Below are positions 339 through 23,713 of a DNA stretch of 35,656 nt, piece by piece. The stretch's first letter is position 1; every line of letters starts with the position of its first letter. The position numbers and the translations under genes are program-made. A model generated the notes under the pieces. That model saw only the letters and a program-made list of their open reading frames with translations. It was not told the origin of the DNA and ran no database searches. This DNA is from Fusobacteriota bacterium (GTDB lineage: Bacteria; Fusobacteriota; Fusobacteriia; JAPLKR01). The stretch lies in NCBI GenBank assembly GCA_026387965.1, contig JAPLKR010000101.1:1-35656 (forward strand), given 5' to 3'.

Positions 339-397
339 CTCACCCGATAATAAAAAATCACACCTAGTGTGTGATTTTTTATTATCGGGTGAGTGTA
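335..397 (-). terminator. 29-bp perfect hairpin at the end of the dehydrogenase gene
   Basis: Arms at 335-363 and 369-397 are perfectly complementary around a 5-nt loop. On the minus strand the right arm contains the last codons and the TAA (382-384) of the upstream gene, and a T-rich run follows within the structure, so it probably terminates that gene. The left arm reaches four bases into the terminal repeat of the IS30 element. The stem is much longer than an ordinary intrinsic terminator. Confidence 0.7.
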
Positions 398-1890
398 TTT
401 AATTTTATGTCTCCCATCTCGTTAATGATGGTTTTTTGAGGAACTAAAACACCCGTGTTCAAATTCGTATATGTGTTACTGCTAACATTTTTTCCATCAA
501 GATATACGTCCCCTTGCTTCACGGTTGCTCTTAAATTGCCTATATCTCCAAGATAAAATATATCTCCTATTTTCTCAACAAGCGACAGTTCAAAGTTGGT
601 TGGCATATTTTGTAAGACAACATTTCCCATATCATCTTCAATTTTCAAACTACATTTTTCAGGTAAATTTTGTATCGTTATTTTTCCCATTCCATTGAGT
701 ACTGTTAAAGATTTCAATGATGCTTGCGAACTATTTTGAATAGAGATATCCCCCATGCTCGCACTAAAAAGCACAATTTGAACATTATTCTTTATAATAT
801 TGGCAAAACTAATATTTCCAATTTCTGAAGTGGCCGTAATTATTTTCAAAGGGCTAGATGCAGGAATGCTTAACGTTAAAATATCAAGTAAATTTAAATC
901 ATCTGGTAGCGTCGTTTCAATCGTTGCAATGCCATCCTTTATTTGCGTAACAACGGGATATTTTTGAGTTGCACTTCCAGATATTTTGTTGCTTTGTGTA
1001 TTAATAACCGTCGATGTAACATTATATTCATTACTTGATGAGAAAGTTATTAATAAGTTCCCCACACGATTTTTAATATTAAATTGAGTTATACTTAAAT
1101 TCATATATTCTAAAAAATCTTCACCTTTTTTATCTTTTTTGATCTCCATCACTTCTTTAATCTCTTCCCCTACTAGAAATCGAATTCTATCGCTATATTC
1201 CGTTGCTGCGCGATATACCATTTTAGCAACTTCATCTAATGAGTCACTGCTTGAAGGGTGTGTAAATATTATATCTCTTGATTTAATATAATCTTGATAA
1301 TAGTCACTTTTTTCATTTTGCGCTAGTGTAAAGTGCGTCTTTCTCTCATTTGCTCCCGAATTTTTATAATCCGTCACAACCATTCTCGACTTTACTCCCA
1401 GTGGGTTAAGTTCATAATTAAGACCCTCACAAAACCCTTCTAGCGCCCATTTGGATGCATTATAACTTGCCATAAACGGGTGCGTAATCACACCTGATAC
1501 ACTTGAGAGTGTCAAAAAAAATCCTTTTGAACGTTTCTTGAAATGTGGAATAAATTCTTTGTATACTATCATAGGAATTTCAACATTCATTCGCCACATA
1601 TCTTCGAGTAGTTCTATTTCCGTAAATTCAAGTGGCCCAAAAACTTTATAATCTAATGTATTAATCACTATATCTACTGTCCCAAAAGTATCAAACACTT
1701 TGGAAACCATTTTTTTAATGCTACCACTCTCTTGGCTATTCCATAAAAAATACCTTGCCTCACTCGAACTTCCAATACTGGTCTCTCCATTGAATCCAAC
1801 GGCCACATCAAAGCCATTTTTCACAAAATAATCTACAATCCTCTTTCCCACGTTATGGGAAGCATCTGTGATAAATACGGTTTTCTTCAA
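382..1890 (-). CDS. Short-chain dehydrogenase/reductase fused to a repetitive beta-strand (DUF4097-like) domain
   Basis: This 502-residue protein starts at a TTG (1890) with AAGGAG seven bases upstream. Residues 1-250 look like a classical SDR Rossmann enzyme: the catalytic serine S130, Y143 and K147 (YNASK) are spaced as in the family. The cofactor loop is unusual: TGxxxGIG reads T8-D-A-S-H-N-V-G15, with Asp replacing the first glycine, and the NNAG motif reads NTLD (77-80). From about residue 275 the protein changes to repeating short strands with motifs such as IGNISF, MGDISIQN, MGKITIQN, MGNVVLQN and GDVYLDG, resembling the DUF4097/DUF4098 putative-adhesin beta-helix family. There is no signal peptide. 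Substrate unknown. Its promoter overlaps that of the divergent DUF896 gene. SDR confidence is high; the C-terminal assignment is moderate. Confidence 0.75.
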   Translation of the reverse strand: MKKTVFITDASHNVGKRIVDYFVKNGFDVAVGFNGETSIGSSSEARYFLWNSQESGSIKKMVSKVFDTFGTVDIVINTLDYKVFGPLEFTEIELLEDMWRMNVEIPMIVYKEFIPHFKKRSKGFFLTLSSVSGVITHPFMASYNASKWALEGFCEGLNYELNPLGVKSRMVVTDYKNSGANERKTHFTLAQNEKSDYYQDYIKSRDIIFTHPSSSDSLDEVAKMVYRAATEYSDRIRFLVGEEIKEVMEIKKDKKGEDFLEYMNLSITQFNIKNRVGNLLITFSSSNEYNVTSTVINTQSNKISGSATQKYPVVTQIKDGIATIETTLPDDLNLLDILTLSIPASSPLKIITATSEIGNISFANIIKNNVQIVLFSASMGDISIQNSSQASLKSLTVLNGMGKITIQNLPEKCSLKIEDDMGNVVLQNMPTNFELSLVEKIGDIFYLGDIGNLRATVKQGDVYLDGKNVSSNTYTNLNTGVLVPQKTIINEMGDIKLNTLTR

Positions 1891-1914
1891 AATTCAACTC
1901 CTTAAACAAAATAC

Positions 1915-1942
1915 TTGATATATCTTATATATGTAGTATAAT
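1915..1942 (+). promoter_or_regulatory. Promoter for the DUF896 gene
   Basis: TTGATA (1915-1920), a 16-nt spacer and TATAAT (1937-1942) lie about 40 nt upstream of the GTG start at 1984. It is divergent from, and overlaps, the dehydrogenase promoter. Confidence 0.65.
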
Positions 1943-1963
1943 ATGATTAGAGCTTTTTAGCAA
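1935..1963 (-). promoter_or_regulatory. Promoter for the dehydrogenase fusion gene
   Basis: On the minus strand, TTGCTA (1963-1958), a 17-nt spacer and TATACT (1940-1935) precede the TTG start at 1890 by about 45 nt. The -10 box lies on top of the -10 box of the opposite promoter. Confidence 0.55.
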
Positions 1964-4562: not shown

Positions 4563-4642
4563 AATGTTTTGTTTTGTAGAAAGAAAACCACAATGCCTGA
4601 TCCGTAACCGAAAATAGCGTATGGGCTGATTTTTTTTATTTA

Positions 4643-4692
4643 AGACCTCAATTGTCAAATTAAGTGCAACCTTAATTTGACAATTGAGGTCT
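4643..4692. repeat. 22-bp perfect palindrome at the inner/left end of the mini-IS30
   Basis: Arms 4643-4664 and 4671-4692 are exactly complementary around the loop TGCAAC. The left arm plus loop equals the element's terminal repeat. The right arm looks like a second, abutting inverted copy of that repeat and marks where transposase homology stops. Confidence 0.8.
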
Positions 4693-4753
4693 CAAATGAA
4701 ACGCACTTCAAGCCCGCCTCTTCCATACACCCTTTGATTTGTTCTGGCGAATG

Positions 4754-5023
4754 TCATTCTATAAGTTTTGCATGAATCGACTCTTTCAATATATGATTGT
4801 TACTTAGCTTATTAGTTGCTCCACAGTGCTTTTTTCTCTCTTTTGAGAGCTTTTCTGCCTTGAGTGTACTATAAATGCCATTCAAACTATTTCTTATTAA
4901 CTCTCGGCTAATTGTGCTTTTACTGCGATTAAGCTTGCCTGCGACACTTATTGAGTTTTCTCCTCGGGCTAACATCATCTGTATACTTTCTCGTTCATCT
5001 GTGGTTATATTGGTATAGCTCAT
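4754..5023 (-). pseudogene. Truncated IS30-family transposase
   Basis: The 89-codon frame starts MSYTNITTDERESIQMMLA and has the same helix-turn-helix (NRSKSTISRELIRN) as the copy at 1-234. It ends at a TGA (4756-4754), but translation beyond that stop in the same frame gives HSPEQIKGCMEEAGLK and VSFET, matching the conserved SPEQI...V(S/T)xETIY part of IS30 transposases. So it carries a premature in-frame stop, and then loses all remaining coding sequence at the palindrome around 4690. The catalytic DDE domain is absent. AAGGAG lies upstream of the ATG. Confidence 0.85.
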
Positions 5024-5140
5024 AAGTTAAAGTCTCCTTAATGTTTGGTCGGAACTCACATTATAACCGACTTCTTCCTTATTGGCTTTTTTATTACCTT
5101 TATTTCACCTTGTTGCACTTAATTATACAATTCACGATTT

Positions 5141-7443: not shown

Positions 7444-9030
7444 TTATTTATTAAGTTCTACAATTTCTGGTGTAATTTCAATAAATATTTTACGCGTTAT
7501 CTGAGTTTTAGAGCTTGATTTAAACAAATTACCAATCAGTGGCATAGATGAAAGTACCGGCACACTTGTGTTGTTCACGGTATCCTCTGAATGTTCAAGA
7601 CCACCTATAACAATTGTTTCACCATTTTTAACTCTAACAATTGTATCCGCTGTACTTCCTTTCGTCGACACCGTTTCTTGTTGTCCAGGAATAGTAATTT
7701 TATTAACCACAAAGGTACTTAGATTAGTCGAGATCGTTAGAATAATAGTTCCATCATTTTTTATCAGTGGCGTCACTTTGAGGGTTGTTCCTGCTGTTTG
7801 ATATAAAGGCTCTGTGGTAGTAATTTGTGTATTCGGATCAACAGTAGTCTTCGTTCCTACCACACGATTTTCCACTACATCTATATTAGCTGGTTCACCA
7901 TTTACTACCATAATATTAGGGGCAGAAACGACATTAGAGTCATCCACTGAGTTAAGTAGTTGAAAAGAACCAGAAAATCCGCCTCTTGAAAAAATAAATC
8001 CCAATTGTCCAATTGGGGGAACTAAAGGATTGGTAATGGTTGTTCCGCCCAATATTTGCATTGCTGTGTTTCCATTACTTAACTCGCTCCAATTAAATCC
8101 AAGCTTATTAGCCAGTGTGCTCGTCATATCCGTGATTTTTGCTCTAATTAATACCTGTTTAATGTTTTTATCCAAATTATCAGCCACAGCAATCGCTGTT
8201 TTAATATCTGTTGGATTTCCTTTAAGAATAATAATACTATTTTTACTGTCTACAATGGTGGTTAAATTTGGAAGAAGTTGCTTAAAAACGGTATTAACCC
8301 CCTCAATATCGGTATTATTTACATATAGAATTTTAGTTGATTGAATATTGCCACCATCATCTTCAACTACACCAATATCGCTATTGATCCCAGAATCTGT
8401 GGAGATAGTATTCACTTTCACCAAAGGTTTTCCCATATTAAAATTGATTCTTTGCTGCTTTCCTGTATAGGTAACAAGTTCTGAGACAGAGGCATAATTA
8501 GCCGCCGAAAGCCTCATAATATACTCCCCTTCAGAGAGACCATAAATCTTATAGACTCCAAACTTATCCGTTGTTACTGTTCCCTCGCTGCCATCTCCAA
8601 ACTTCAAACTTACGTTTGGAACGCCTTTTCCATAATAATCGACCACTTCCCCTGTGATATAATTTGAACCATTCGTTGAGCCACCCGATACATTTTGGGC
8701 AGCTAACTGAAAAATAACCCCACTACTTCCCGCGTTAGAAAGTGTTAAATTTAGCTGAGTTGAAATCATAGAAAGCACATCGTAAGCTGTCTCGCCCGGA
8801 GCTGTCATAAGTGAAAGTTGAAGGGGATTAACATTTGCGGTCGCTGTGATTTTCATATTATATACATATCCAAGTACATTTACAGCATCAGCCATTTGCA
8901 TATCTGTAAATTCAATTGTTTTGGGATATTTAGTATTTTTTAATTTAGCTATAACTCCTGGAGTCAGCGATTCAGAAAATAGCGCTAACGACAGTATAAG
9001 TAACATAATTGCAATCGCTATTTTTTTCAT
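7444..9030 (-). CDS. Secretin (PilQ/GspD family) with a carboxypeptidase-regulatory-like insert
   Basis: This 528-residue protein is the predicted outer-membrane gate for a type IV pilus or type II secretion-like machine. Order of parts: signal peptide (1-18); a short STN/N0-like domain (about 35-108, with TAYDVLSMISTQLNLTL); a 70-residue beta-sandwich of the CarboxypepD_reg type (about 126-200, with GKGVPNVSLKFGDG and GVYKIYGLSEGEYIMRL); an N1-like domain (about 228-295); then the secretin channel (about 295-528) with VVSAPNIMVVNGEPA, GTTLKVTPLI, VRVKNGETIVIGGL and PLIGNLFKSSS. It overlaps the preceding secreted-protein gene by 4 nt (ATGA) and ends at the operon terminator. The inserted domain is unusual between N0 and N1. 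Secretin identity is confident; pilus versus secretion role is not settled. Confidence 0.92.
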   Translation of the reverse strand: MKKIAIAIMLLILSLALFSESLTPGVIAKLKNTKYPKTIEFTDMQMADAVNVLGYVYNMKITATANVNPLQLSLMTAPGETAYDVLSMISTQLNLTLSNAGSSGVIFQLAAQNVSGGSTNGSNYITGEVVDYYGKGVPNVSLKFGDGSEGTVTTDKFGVYKIYGLSEGEYIMRLSAANYASVSELVTYTGKQQRINFNMGKPLVKVNTISTDSGINSDIGVVEDDGGNIQSTKILYVNNTDIEGVNTVFKQLLPNLTTIVDSKNSIIILKGNPTDIKTAIAVADNLDKNIKQVLIRAKITDMTSTLANKLGFNWSELSNGNTAMQILGGTTITNPLVPPIGQLGFIFSRGGFSGSFQLLNSVDDSNVVSAPNIMVVNGEPANIDVVENRVVGTKTTVDPNTQITTTEPLYQTAGTTLKVTPLIKNDGTIILTISTNLSTFVVNKITIPGQQETVSTKGSTADTIVRVKNGETIVIGGLEHSEDTVNNTSVPVLSSMPLIGNLFKSSSKTQITRKIFIEITPEIVELNK

Positions 9031-16751: not shown

Positions 16752-17837
16752 CTATTTTACTGTGTTTTGACTCACTAAATTTACCGCCTGAATCATATGT
16801 CCTTCATAATATATAGAAACACTACCAATATTTTTTCCTACTTTTAATGGTCCAATAATATTACTTTTCAATTTATAGCGATAGGTAATTTTGTTTTGTG
16901 TCCCTTTTATAATGTTAATATTCACATTTCGAGAAACTGTTGCTAACACATTGGTGCCGCCAACTTCAAGTGAAATGCTTTTAATCACTTGATTGGCCGT
17001 TAGTACTTGGTATGATATCACATCATTGTAAGCCATAGAAATTATTTGCTTGGCTATTATATTTCTATCTACTTCAGTTGTCCCGCCGAACACAACAACA
17101 ATAAATTTTTTACCTGCTCGGCTTGTGGATACAACAATATTGTATTTCGACTCATTATGATGTCCAGTTTTCATTCCTGTTGTTCCTGGAACTGAAATCA
17201 GTATTGGATTGCTACTGTATAGCATAATTTTCCCGTTGCAAATTTTTGCTTCTCCTAAGCTACATATCGACATAAATGTACGAGATGCCATAAGCTTTGA
17301 TGCGAGTATCGCAGTATCGGAAGCGGTTGATACATCTAATGGTTTATTCGTCATTGAGGTTGGTAAGCCATCTGGTGTAAAGTAGATGGTGCTTTCCATT
17401 CCGAGTCTGGCAGCCTCAGAGTTCATTTGGGCTACAAATCTTGCAGGACTTCCATTTCCAATTAAATACGCAAGTGTCATCGCAGCATCATTTCCTGAGG
17501 GAATAATCATCCCTTTAAGTAAATCACTTACTGATATATATTGTCCATATGAAAGATCTGCGCTACTTCCTGAAGTACTTGCCGCTATTTTATTCACAGT
17601 CGTCATTTCACTGAGAGAAGTTTTACCCTCTTGTATATTTTGGAGGACCACATACGCATTCATAAGCTTTGTAAGCGAAGCGAGTGGCCAAACTTTACCC
17701 ACAGCGCTGCCCGCAATATAATTTCCATTTGAATCTGTTAAAATCCAAGAAGAACATTTGCCCGTAGAAATCTGTGCATATGTTAAAGAGATGCAAAGTA
17801 ATAGAAACAGTACTAATAAACCAACTCTATTTTTCAC
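16752..17837 (-). CDS. Serine-type D-Ala-D-Ala carboxypeptidase (S11 family)
   Basis: This 361-residue exported enzyme starts at GTG 17837 behind AAGGGGTGG. A signal peptide (1-21) is followed by the penicillin-binding S11 motifs: SLTK (SxxK) in WPLASLTKLMNAYV, SGN in IIPSGNDAAMTL, and KTG in GMKTGHHNESKYNIV. S11 enzymes remove the terminal D-Ala of peptidoglycan stem peptides in the periplasm. It is a paralogue of the upstream gene (shared GKxWPxASxTK, PSGNDA, GLPxSMT and MKTG blocks) but lacks LysM repeats. It sits 20 nt downstream of that gene and about 30 nt before pilD. Confidence 0.9.
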   Translation of the reverse strand: MKNRVGLLVLFLLLCISLTYAQISTGKCSSWILTDSNGNYIAGSAVGKVWPLASLTKLMNAYVVLQNIQEGKTSLSEMTTVNKIAASTSGSSADLSYGQYISVSDLLKGMIIPSGNDAAMTLAYLIGNGSPARFVAQMNSEAARLGMESTIYFTPDGLPTSMTNKPLDVSTASDTAILASKLMASRTFMSICSLGEAKICNGKIMLYSSNPILISVPGTTGMKTGHHNESKYNIVVSTSRAGKKFIVVVFGGTTEVDRNIIAKQIISMAYNDVISYQVLTANQVIKSISLEVGGTNVLATVSRNVNINIIKGTQNKITYRYKLKSNIIGPLKVGKNIGSVSIYYEGHMIQAVNLVSQNTVK

Positions 17838-17857
17838 AAATATCCACCCCTTTCAAG

Positions 17858-19258
17858 CTAATTAATTTTCCCGTACTGCGTATAATATTGATAAGCTTGA
17901 TTAATTATTTTTTGAGGATTCACATGTAACCACTCAACGGTTGGACAACCAAAAACTAATACAATAAAACCTACGTTCCCTCTTTGTACGCTGGCAACAA
18001 TATTATATTTAGCTAGGTCATGATTTCCTGTTTTCATTCCATTAATACCCGGAACGCGCGTTAATAGCCATTGATTACTGTTTCTTATTTGGTAACGCCC
18101 ACCATCAATCATTGCGTATTTTTGACTAGAAATTTGTATATATGTCGAACTATTATACAATCTTGTTGCCAAAATTGCCATGTCGGCTGCTGTTGAAATG
18201 TCCATTCCTTTTCCACCGGTCATACTTGGTGGAAGTCCACATGGTGTATAAAACCTCGTATGTGTCATACCTAGTGACTTTGCCGTTGCATTCATTTGAG
18301 CTACAAAAGCATTTTGGTTTCCACCTGATATCATTAAGGCAATGGCTGTTGCTGCATCATTTCCAGACGGCATAATGGCACCTTCGAGTAAATCATACAG
18401 TGATATCGTTTCCCTTTCATAAAGAAAAGCTGAACTTCCTCCAACTGTTCTTGATGTAGCTTGCCATGGCACCGTATACATACTGTTTAAACTGAATTTA
18501 CCCTGTTGTATCGCTTGAAGCGCAACATATGCTGTCATCATTTTGGTGATAGAAGCCATTGGCCACACTTTGTTAATATTTTTTCCCGCTATAAACTGAC
18601 CTTGTGTACTAATAAGAAGCCAAGATTGACAGGGTCCCACCTTAATCGCGGGAGCTGTTCCAACCTGCGTTACCGTTACAGTGTTAGAATTTTTAACTAC
18701 TTTTGCATTTCTCTGTGCGGCCGAAGACGTCGCTACTACTGTAGAAGTTGTTGTATTGGCTAATTGTGTTGGAACCGTTAACTTCATTCCTATTTTAAGT
18801 CGACTTGTTCTCATTCCGCTTGCTTTTCGAATTGCCTGAGGTGTCGTTTGATATTTTTTAGCAATACTTGTTAACGTATCTCCACTTTTAACCACATAAG
18901 ATAGTTTCGACGACTGAATTTGTGATTGAGTTTGCATTGCAGATCGTGTTGATGGGGCTGTATAAGTTGTCTTTGCAACAGGTGTTGTGACTTTTTGAAG
19001 TGTTGGTATCACCAACTTCATGCCTGCTTTAATATTTCCAGTGGAAAGCCTGTTCGCGTATTGAATTGAAGCCACGGATGTATTGTATTTTTTAGCAATA
19101 CTTGATAAATTGTCACCGCTTTTTACAACATAGTTTACATAAACCGTTTGAACCGCAGAAGTTTGACTTTTTTGGCTATGTGAAGCGGTTGTTTTTGCAT
19201 ATCCCCCCAAAGCTACCAGTACAAACAGTCCACATATTATTAACGTTCTCTTTTTCAC
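17858..19258 (-). CDS. LysM-containing D-Ala-D-Ala carboxypeptidase (S11 family)
   Basis: This 466-residue exported protein starts at GTG 19258 behind GGAGAGG. It has a signal peptide (about 1-21), two LysM repeats (about 42-92 and 118-168, each VVKSGD-LxSIAKKY...GMKLxVP), a Ser/Thr/Val linker, then an S11 peptidase domain with SITK in WPMASITKMMTAYV, SGN in IMPSGNDAATAI, and KTG in GMKTGNHDLAKYNIV. LysM binds GlcNAc-containing glycan, which would hold the enzyme on peptidoglycan. As first gene of the envelope cluster, it may help remodel the wall for the pilus/secretin complex; that link is inference from position. Confidence 0.92.
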   Translation of the reverse strand: MKKRTLIICGLFVLVALGGYAKTTASHSQKSQTSAVQTVYVNYVVKSGDNLSSIAKKYNTSVASIQYANRLSTGNIKAGMKLVIPTLQKVTTPVAKTTYTAPSTRSAMQTQSQIQSSKLSYVVKSGDTLTSIAKKYQTTPQAIRKASGMRTSRLKIGMKLTVPTQLANTTTSTVVATSSAAQRNAKVVKNSNTVTVTQVGTAPAIKVGPCQSWLLISTQGQFIAGKNINKVWPMASITKMMTAYVALQAIQQGKFSLNSMYTVPWQATSRTVGGSSAFLYERETISLYDLLEGAIMPSGNDAATAIALMISGGNQNAFVAQMNATAKSLGMTHTRFYTPCGLPPSMTGGKGMDISTAADMAILATRLYNSSTYIQISSQKYAMIDGGRYQIRNSNQWLLTRVPGINGMKTGNHDLAKYNIVASVQRGNVGFIVLVFGCPTVEWLHVNPQKIINQAYQYYTQYGKIN

Positions 19259-22372: not shown

Positions 22373-23713
22373 CTAAGGTGGCAAAATTGCTTGAAAATGT
22401 CTATTTCTTCCTTGTTTCGCCGAACCACCTGCTGAATCTCCTTCGACTAAATACACTTCGCACTCCGCAGGATCTTTAGACGAACAATCCGCTAATTTTC
22501 CTGGCATAAAAGAAATATCTAACGCATTTTTTCTCATAACTAAATCACGCGCTTTTTTTGCCGCCTCTCTAGCTCTTCTGGATATTGAAATTTTATCAAT
22601 TATCTCTTTTGTAACTTTTGGCGCATCTTCTAAATAGCGCTTTAGATGAAGCATTACAATCCCGGAAACAATACCTGTTACTTCAGAATTCCCAAGTTTT
22701 GTTTTAGTTTGTCCTTCAAATTGAGGCTCCGGAACTTTAATATTTATAATTGCAGACAGCCCTTCTCTTACATCGCTTCCTTGAAAAGTGCTGTCTTTTT
22801 CTTTTATGAATCCAAGTGATTTTGAAACATCGTTAATAACGCGCGTTAAAGCTGTTTTAAACCCCGATACGTGCGTTCCACCTTCGTGGGTATTGATGTT
22901 GTTAACAAACGAGAAAATAGCCTCTTTTTCGTGATCTGCATAGACCAGAGCTATCTCTACTTGCACATCTAAATCTTCTCCACTCATAAATAGTACTATT
23001 GGAGTAATAAGAGAAGTTCCTTTGTTTAGATCTAAAATATAATCTTGTATTCCGCCTTCAAACTCAAATACATCACGAATAATATTTGCTTCATCTCTTA
23101 AATCTTCAACAACTATTTTTAAACCTCTATTAAGATATGCCATTTCTTTTAAACGCGTAGCGATAACATCGTATTCGTACTCTAGAGATTCAAAAATAGT
23201 ATCATCGGCCAAAAACACCGTTTTTGTTCCTGTTTTATCTGAAACTTCACACCTCTCAACATCCGCTACCGGCTTTCCTCGCTTATATGATTGGCGCCAC
23301 TTAAAACCTTCACGACACACTTCTACATCAAGCCATGTTGAGAGTGCATTTACTACTGAAGCTCCCACACCATGAAGACCTCCAGAAACTTTATATCCAC
23401 CTTTTTCAAATTTTCCACCTGCGTGTAAAACTGTCATAACTATTTCTAAGGCTGACCTTTTTTGTTGTGCATGTAATCCGGTTGGAATACCTCTTCCGTT
23501 ATCCTCTACACTAATAATATTGCCTGGAAGAAAAGATACTTTAATATCTTTACAATATCCAGCTAAAGCCTCATCCACCGAATTATCTACAATTTCATAA
23601 ACTAAATGATGAAGACCTCGAATAGATGTACTGCCAATATACATTCCAGGACGTTTCCGAACAGCTTCTAATCCTTCTAAAACTTTAATATCACTTGCTG
23701 AATACTCTCCCAC
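22373..23713 (-). CDS. gyrB: DNA gyrase subunit B, N-terminal part (broken gyrB)
   Basis: About 446 residues carry the GHKL ATPase domain ([38 protein letters not shown]), the transducer domain and the start of TOPRIM ([26 protein letters not shown]). The frame then ends at TAG (22375-22373), whereas normal GyrB continues for about 190 residues; the remainder is in another frame at 21861-22352. GTG 23713 is the likely start since GGAGG stands 8 nt upstream; an ATG five codons earlier (23728) is the alternative. Either start overlaps the end of the dciA-like gene. A lesion in an essential gene suggests sequence error or that another gyrB copy exists. Confidence 0.92.

Follow-up and report, generated by a model that had tools for sequence, protein, structure and literature searches.

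A short-chain dehydrogenase-like domain with a dismantled cofactor site, joined to a beta-repeat tail in a Fusobacteriota draft genome

Short-chain dehydrogenases/reductases (SDRs) rank with the largest families of enzymes, and their classical members carry a first sequence motif of the form T-G/A-x3-G/A-x-G (PMC11976700). In the literature we searched, the halohydrin dehalogenases form one well-documented cofactor-free branch: these SDR relatives keep a Ser-Tyr-Arg triad, with a nucleophile pocket replacing the cofactor site (PMC4989007; PMC11976700), and are recognized by two fingerprints, T-x4-F/Y-x-G for motif 1 and S-x12-Y-x3-R for motif 2 (PMC11976700). They are the closest precedent for an SDR fold that does without its cofactor (PMC4989007). 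Among beta-repeat proteins, the intracellular Toastrack domains have been proposed to serve as docking platforms (PMC11237479).

Here, we analyze a gene from a Fusobacteriota bacterium that joins an SDR-like domain to a repetitive beta-strand tail. The window, i.e., the whole stretch of DNA that was analyzed, comprises 35,656 nucleotides (GenBank assembly GCA_026387965.1, contig JAPLKR010000101.1). A preliminary description had placed the feature at 382-1890; this is a real open reading frame of 502 amino acids on the minus strand, and both its two-part architecture and its altered cofactor loop are confirmed. The elements of the gene are the following.

382-1890, minus strand: whole gene for the 502-aa SDR-like/beta-repeat fusion protein (open reading frame; TTG start, TAA stop)
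1898-1903, minus strand: ribosome-binding site AAGGAG, separated from the TTG start by 7 nt (from the sequence)
1935-1963, minus strand: promoter-like site TTGCTA-17-TATACT, weak (9/12; consensus match only)
1105-1890, minus strand: residues 1-262, complete SDR domain (Pfam, NCBIfam, alignment with relatives)
385-1104, minus strand: residues 263-502, beta-repeat domain without a Pfam match (Pfam search, repeat analysis, paralogue)
400-822, minus strand: residues 357-497, repeated strands of ∼20 residues (IGNISF, MGDISI, MGKITI, MGNVVL, IGDIFY, QGDVYL, MGDIKL)
334-398, no strand: perfect 30-bp inverted repeat (loop of 5 nt) in which the final codons and the stop codon of the fusion gene lie

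The gene is present in a single copy, and the other SDR genes of the genome show 24-29% identity to the fusion protein, in the SDR part only. Codon usage is native in both halves, with GC content, GC3, and codon score all within the range of neighboring genes; in the tail region, each of the two alternative frames has 24 stops. The fusion gene is solitary and diverges from a DUF896 gene (1984-2181), after which come genes reading as RidA, RecA, and an acyltransferase. Its promoter-like site overlaps a stronger divergent one on the plus strand (1915-1942, also a consensus match).

At the 3′ end, the region around the inverted repeat (320-430) has a folding z-score of -12.6, and the repeat is abutted by the end of an IS30-type element that runs off the contig. 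Two such elements are found, at 1-338 and 4654-5129, which are 86-89% alike and share the end sequence GTTGCACTTAATTATACA; of the second only a short remnant is left, which holds an 89-aa N-terminal piece of a transposase (HTH_38). Each lies directly against a strong inverted repeat (334-398 and 4634-4701), a position as though hairpins are targeted. Elsewhere in the window, the secretin of a type IV pilus cluster (7444-9030) has a carboxypeptidase-regulatory-like domain (residues 125-199) ahead of its secretin domain, and there are two adjacent D-alanyl-D-alanine carboxypeptidases (16752-19258), one of which has two LysM domains in front, while its neighbor carries a PBP5 C-terminal domain.

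The N-terminal domain is an SDR of the ∼270-residue, 17-beta-hydroxysteroid-dehydrogenase-like type. Pfam adh_short matches residues 3-178 (E=9e-22) and NCBIfam PRK06179 residues 2-251 (2.7e-31); PDB relatives of this half include 1iol and 3m1a, and an alignment with four ∼270-aa relatives reaches near their C-termini. As a reference set, 80 near SDR relatives were taken from species genomes by two search patterns and then aligned. These patterns correspond to columns 22-31 and 143-151, where conservation is therefore partly built in, and the TGxxxGxG, NNAG, PG, N102, and S130 columns lie outside them. The relatives measure 234-288 aa (the 234-aa one ends at its contig end) and 0/80 are fused, which argues against the tail being an ordinary SDR extension. 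Compared with this set, the cofactor and catalytic sites of the fusion protein read as follows.

1846-1869, minus strand: residues 8-15, TDASHNVG replacing TGxxxGxG, first two glycines lost (G9 and G13 in 80/80 relatives)
1651-1662, minus strand: residues 77-80, NTLD replacing NNAG (N78 in 79/80 relatives, A79 in 80/80, G80 in 79/80)
1369-1374, minus strand: residues 173-174, TD replacing the PG motif (P173 in 78/80 relatives, G174 in 79/80)
1585-1587, minus strand: catalytic Asn102, kept (80/80 relatives)
1501-1503, minus strand: catalytic Ser130, kept (79/80 relatives)
1450-1464, minus strand: residues 143-147, YNASK with catalytic Tyr143 and Lys147, kept (80/80 relatives; the YxxxK block is one of the two search patterns)

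Among 46 columns conserved at ≥95%, 18 are changed in the fusion protein, as compared to a median of 0 and a maximum of 4 in the 80 relatives. These departures (G9D, G13N, W27F, A31V, T32G, M33F, R34N, L50W, D51N, V52S, N78T, A79L, G80D, G105I, P173T, G174D, T178S, and F180A) fall mainly in the NAD(P) site: two are glycines of TGxxxGxG, and others affect the NAG part of NNAG, the PG motif, and positions that follow strands B and C. With the columns sorted by the standard SDR motif map (motif 1 as in PMC11976700), 13/17 coenzyme-motif columns are lost versus 5/29 elsewhere (Fisher p=1e-4, the sorting having been made after the losses were seen). In place of the classical motif 1, the protein reads T-D-ASH-N-V-G; NTLD stands where NNAG would follow strand D, and TD where PG would follow strand F. 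The catalytic set is complete (N102, S130, Y143, K147), its S-x12-Y-x3-K spacing lying within S-x10-14-Y-x3-K. Of the cofactor site, T8, S11, G15, and N77 are still present, and Asp residues have taken the usual places of the pyrophosphate and of the NAG/PG turns.

These results add N102, the fourth residue of the catalytic set, to the S130, Y143, and K147 that the preliminary description had seen kept. The change of NNAG to NTLD was likewise read correctly, and TD for PG and other cofactor-side positions add to it. The reported Asp for the first glycine of the loop stands (D9) but understates the loss, as the second glycine has gone as well (N13). The proposed redox enzyme with an altered cofactor retains its altered loop as a fact, yet is weakened as a reading, because the loss extends beyond one glycine to almost the entire dinucleotide-binding signature. 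To judge by its sequence, the fusion protein is unlikely to be a conventional NAD(P)-dependent reductase. A working oxidoreductase with a site rebuilt for NAD(P)H or some other dinucleotide would draw on the intact tetrad and on the remaining T8, S11, G15, and N77; with 13/17 coenzyme-motif columns changed, Asp at the pyrophosphate and NAG/PG turn sites, and two glycines lost that 80/80 relatives keep, we consider it very improbable.

The loss of the two inner glycines, with T8, G15, and the S-x12-Y-x3-K spacing kept, would also suit a cofactor-independent enzyme, in which Ser-Tyr-Lys(-Asn) would carry out acid-base chemistry and the old nicotinamide site would form part of the pocket, as in the halohydrin dehalogenases that provide the precedent (PMC4989007; PMC11976700). 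However, both of their fingerprints fail: T8-x4-N13-x-G15 has Asn and not Phe/Tyr at position 13, and S130-x12-Y143-x3-K147 has Lys and not Arg at position 147. In addition, an unsystematic look at the neighboring genes recognized none for epoxide or halogen metabolism, and we regard such an enzyme as rather unlikely.

In a tree with its relatives, the fusion protein sits on a terminal branch of 4.2 changes per column, compared with a median of 0.27. A branch of this length would also fit a gene in decay, its SDR part functionless and drifting, and the IS30-type element ending directly beside the 3′ end as well as the absence of a tail orthologue from 98 genomes of the class point the same way. 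On the other hand, decay is difficult to reconcile with 502 codons free of stops, native codon usage in both halves, and a good ribosome-binding site, or with losses that concentrate in the cofactor motifs and spare the tetrad, making it an improbable explanation.

The tail, 240 residues long, is repetitive far beyond chance. The pattern [MILVQ]G[DNK][IV] occurs eight times, whereas 2,000 shuffles averaged 0.2 occurrences and never exceeded 3, and the best self-similarity period is 20 residues. The preliminary description was thus right about the repeated strands, if not about their extent, given as the C-terminal 225 residues (actually 263-502). The resemblance to DUF4097 that it proposed is not significant by sequence: at E≤10, neither a Pfam family for the tail nor a DUF4097 domain anywhere in the genome was found, and a profile of the tail compared with three DUF4097 proteins of the same class reached an hhalign score of 22.9 over 65 columns with a probability of only 2.6%. 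Since this score exceeds the maximum of 18.0 in 100 column shuffles but comes with so low a probability, a kinship to Toastrack/DUF4097 is a lead, not a result. The label of putative adhesin is not supported either, and the described Toastrack/DUF4097 proteins are proposed to be intracellular and not adhesins (PMC11237479). As to the suggested polymer-forming or scaffolded enzyme, nothing we found supports polymer formation. A phage-shock-protein (PSP/Lia) context, common for Toastrack albeit not universal, is absent, with neither PspA_IM30 nor PspC in the genome. In a relative, the locus G081:C1:914640-915824 belongs to a 5,356-aa open frame with repeated DUF4097 matches.

Structure prediction was of little help. 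AlphaFold2 without an alignment gave a model of the full chain too weak to use (mean pLDDT 39.7) and, for the tail, strands throughout, too weak for assignment of a fold such as the right-handed beta-helix of Toastrack (mean pLDDT 55.6, pTM 0.58). A fold search returned weak matches to unrelated beta proteins only (best E=0.19) and no PDB match, and the tail profile found no match among PDB sequences.

The only detectable relative of the tail is an exported 183-aa protein of the same genome (G000:C101:1782-2333), with 32% identity over 94 residues. Its N- and C-terminal parts resemble those of the tail, but about three central repeats are missing from it, it has no SDR domain, and it begins with a signal-peptide-like N-terminus, which the fusion protein does not have. 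As this paralogue stands alone behind its own signal-peptide-like start, the tail can be taken as a separable domain. The paralogue gene is directly followed by one for a calcineurin-like phosphoesterase that appears to be exported, and the two genes may form a unit (G000:C101 1782-3180).

We found the domain combination nowhere else. With the full protein, peptide-pattern scans of about 85,000 species genomes yielded no second fusion, nor did a search of 40 relatives, where the longest other SDR frame is 312 aa; against plasmids and phages, the full protein matched ordinary SDRs only, with no record covering 80%, and the tail revealed no second fusion among viral contigs. Across 98 genomes of the class, the tail by sequence and profile returned only the same-genome paralogue. 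Other matches there (E about 0.01-0.1) were rejected, being short, many in frames with stops and one in an unrelated ABC transporter ATPase. The one paper in which SDR was found together with Toastrack/DUF4097 shows no sign of a fusion in its title or abstract. The earlier remark that no described protein joins these two parts is therefore borne out for the genomes, plasmids, and phages searched, but as the fusion genome is alone in its family in the set searched, absence elsewhere is weak evidence of rarity.

The fusion is known from one draft genome only, and the weight of the claim therefore rests on confirming its sequence. The gyrB gene of the same contig (21861-23728) illustrates the concern. 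It is split into two frames, the first stopping at 22373 and the second resuming in another frame, and roughly 45-50 bases of conserved sequence are missing near the break when judged against the E. coli GyrB. As the only gyrB-like match in the genome, it is likely split by a sequence or assembly error, which raises the chance that the fusion, too, is an assembly error. In that event, a small deletion of the kind seen in this single-copy gyrB would have fused an ordinary SDR gene with the portion of a neighboring gene that encodes the mature region of an exported beta-repeat protein; indeed, the signal-peptide-like start of the paralogue is missing from the fusion, and the join (at about 1104; junction peptide GEDFLEYMNLSITQFNIKNRVG) lies between the SDR end and the expected start of a mature domain. 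However, the join is in frame with both domains whole, a search for within-window repeats found none of ≥14 bases within about 65 bases of it, and an artefact would leave the scattered cofactor-site substitutions unexplained. We consider it quite improbable, yet a real rival.

What we tentatively favor, at somewhat less than an even chance, is that the protein is a binding module of SDR fold, free of cofactor and carried by a platform of beta-repeats. It would be a cytoplasmic two-domain protein whose N-terminal SDR fold has lost ordinary NAD(P)(H) binding and retains the N-S-Y-K tetrad and much of the surrounding conserved fold. Given a dismantled dinucleotide site and a preserved tetrad and fold, the SDR part is probably a pseudo-reductase that holds a small-molecule ligand in the old substrate cleft independently of NAD(P)(H). 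The C-terminal domain may be a beta-helix-like stack of strands, repeating every ∼20 residues, on which this module would be displayed and through which it would dock to partner proteins, the docking surface being suggested by analogy with the proposal for intracellular Toastrack domains (PMC11237479); the whole protein might then act as a sensor or adaptor.

In favor of a binding module are the SDR homology over residues 1-252 or further with all four tetrad residues intact, the 18/46 changed columns and their bias to coenzyme motifs (13/17 versus 5/29), and a terminal branch (4.2 versus 0.27) as expected after a change of function, together with repeats beyond chance, the separable tail, and the docking proposal (PMC11237479). 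Against it, the long branch also suits a decaying gene, a pure binding protein would not need to keep the tetrad, and the neighboring genes point to no ligand or partner. Moreover, with no orthologue in the data searched, selection on the protein is not measurable, and neither the structure models (mean pLDDT 39.7 and 55.6) nor the fold search (best E=0.19) can be used in its support. Rather unlikely, in our estimate, is the wider claim of a new SDR-fold kind, independent of the halohydrin dehalogenases, in which a dismantled dinucleotide site, a kept tetrad, and a beta-helix-like mount would make a cofactor-free enzyme or sensor. If true, the cofactor site would have been lost a second time while the catalytic residues stayed, which would show how redox enzymes turn into binding proteins or into catalysts of non-redox reactions, and beta-repeat domains would have gained a new partner.

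Among known systems, the Toastrack domains (DUF4097/DUF2154/DUF2807) resemble the tail in their short, glycine-punctuated strand repeats and are likewise proposed to be intracellular; they differ in that the tail lacks a Pfam match and the genome lacks PspA and PspC, and the main text of the Toastrack survey (PMC11237479) does not name an SDR partner. The halohydrin dehalogenases (HheA/B/C/G) share an SDR fold without an NAD(P)H site and a Ser-Tyr pair at S-x12-Y spacing, a likeness without demonstrated close kinship, the fusion protein having Asn13 and Lys147. Homology extends over residues 1-252 or more with the classical 17-beta-hydroxysteroid-dehydrogenase-like SDRs (PRK06179; 1iol, 3m1a), which have the N-S-Y-K tetrad and the C-terminal helices in common with the fusion protein and from which it departs by the loss of the NAD(P)-binding motifs and the gain of a 240-residue beta-repeat tail.
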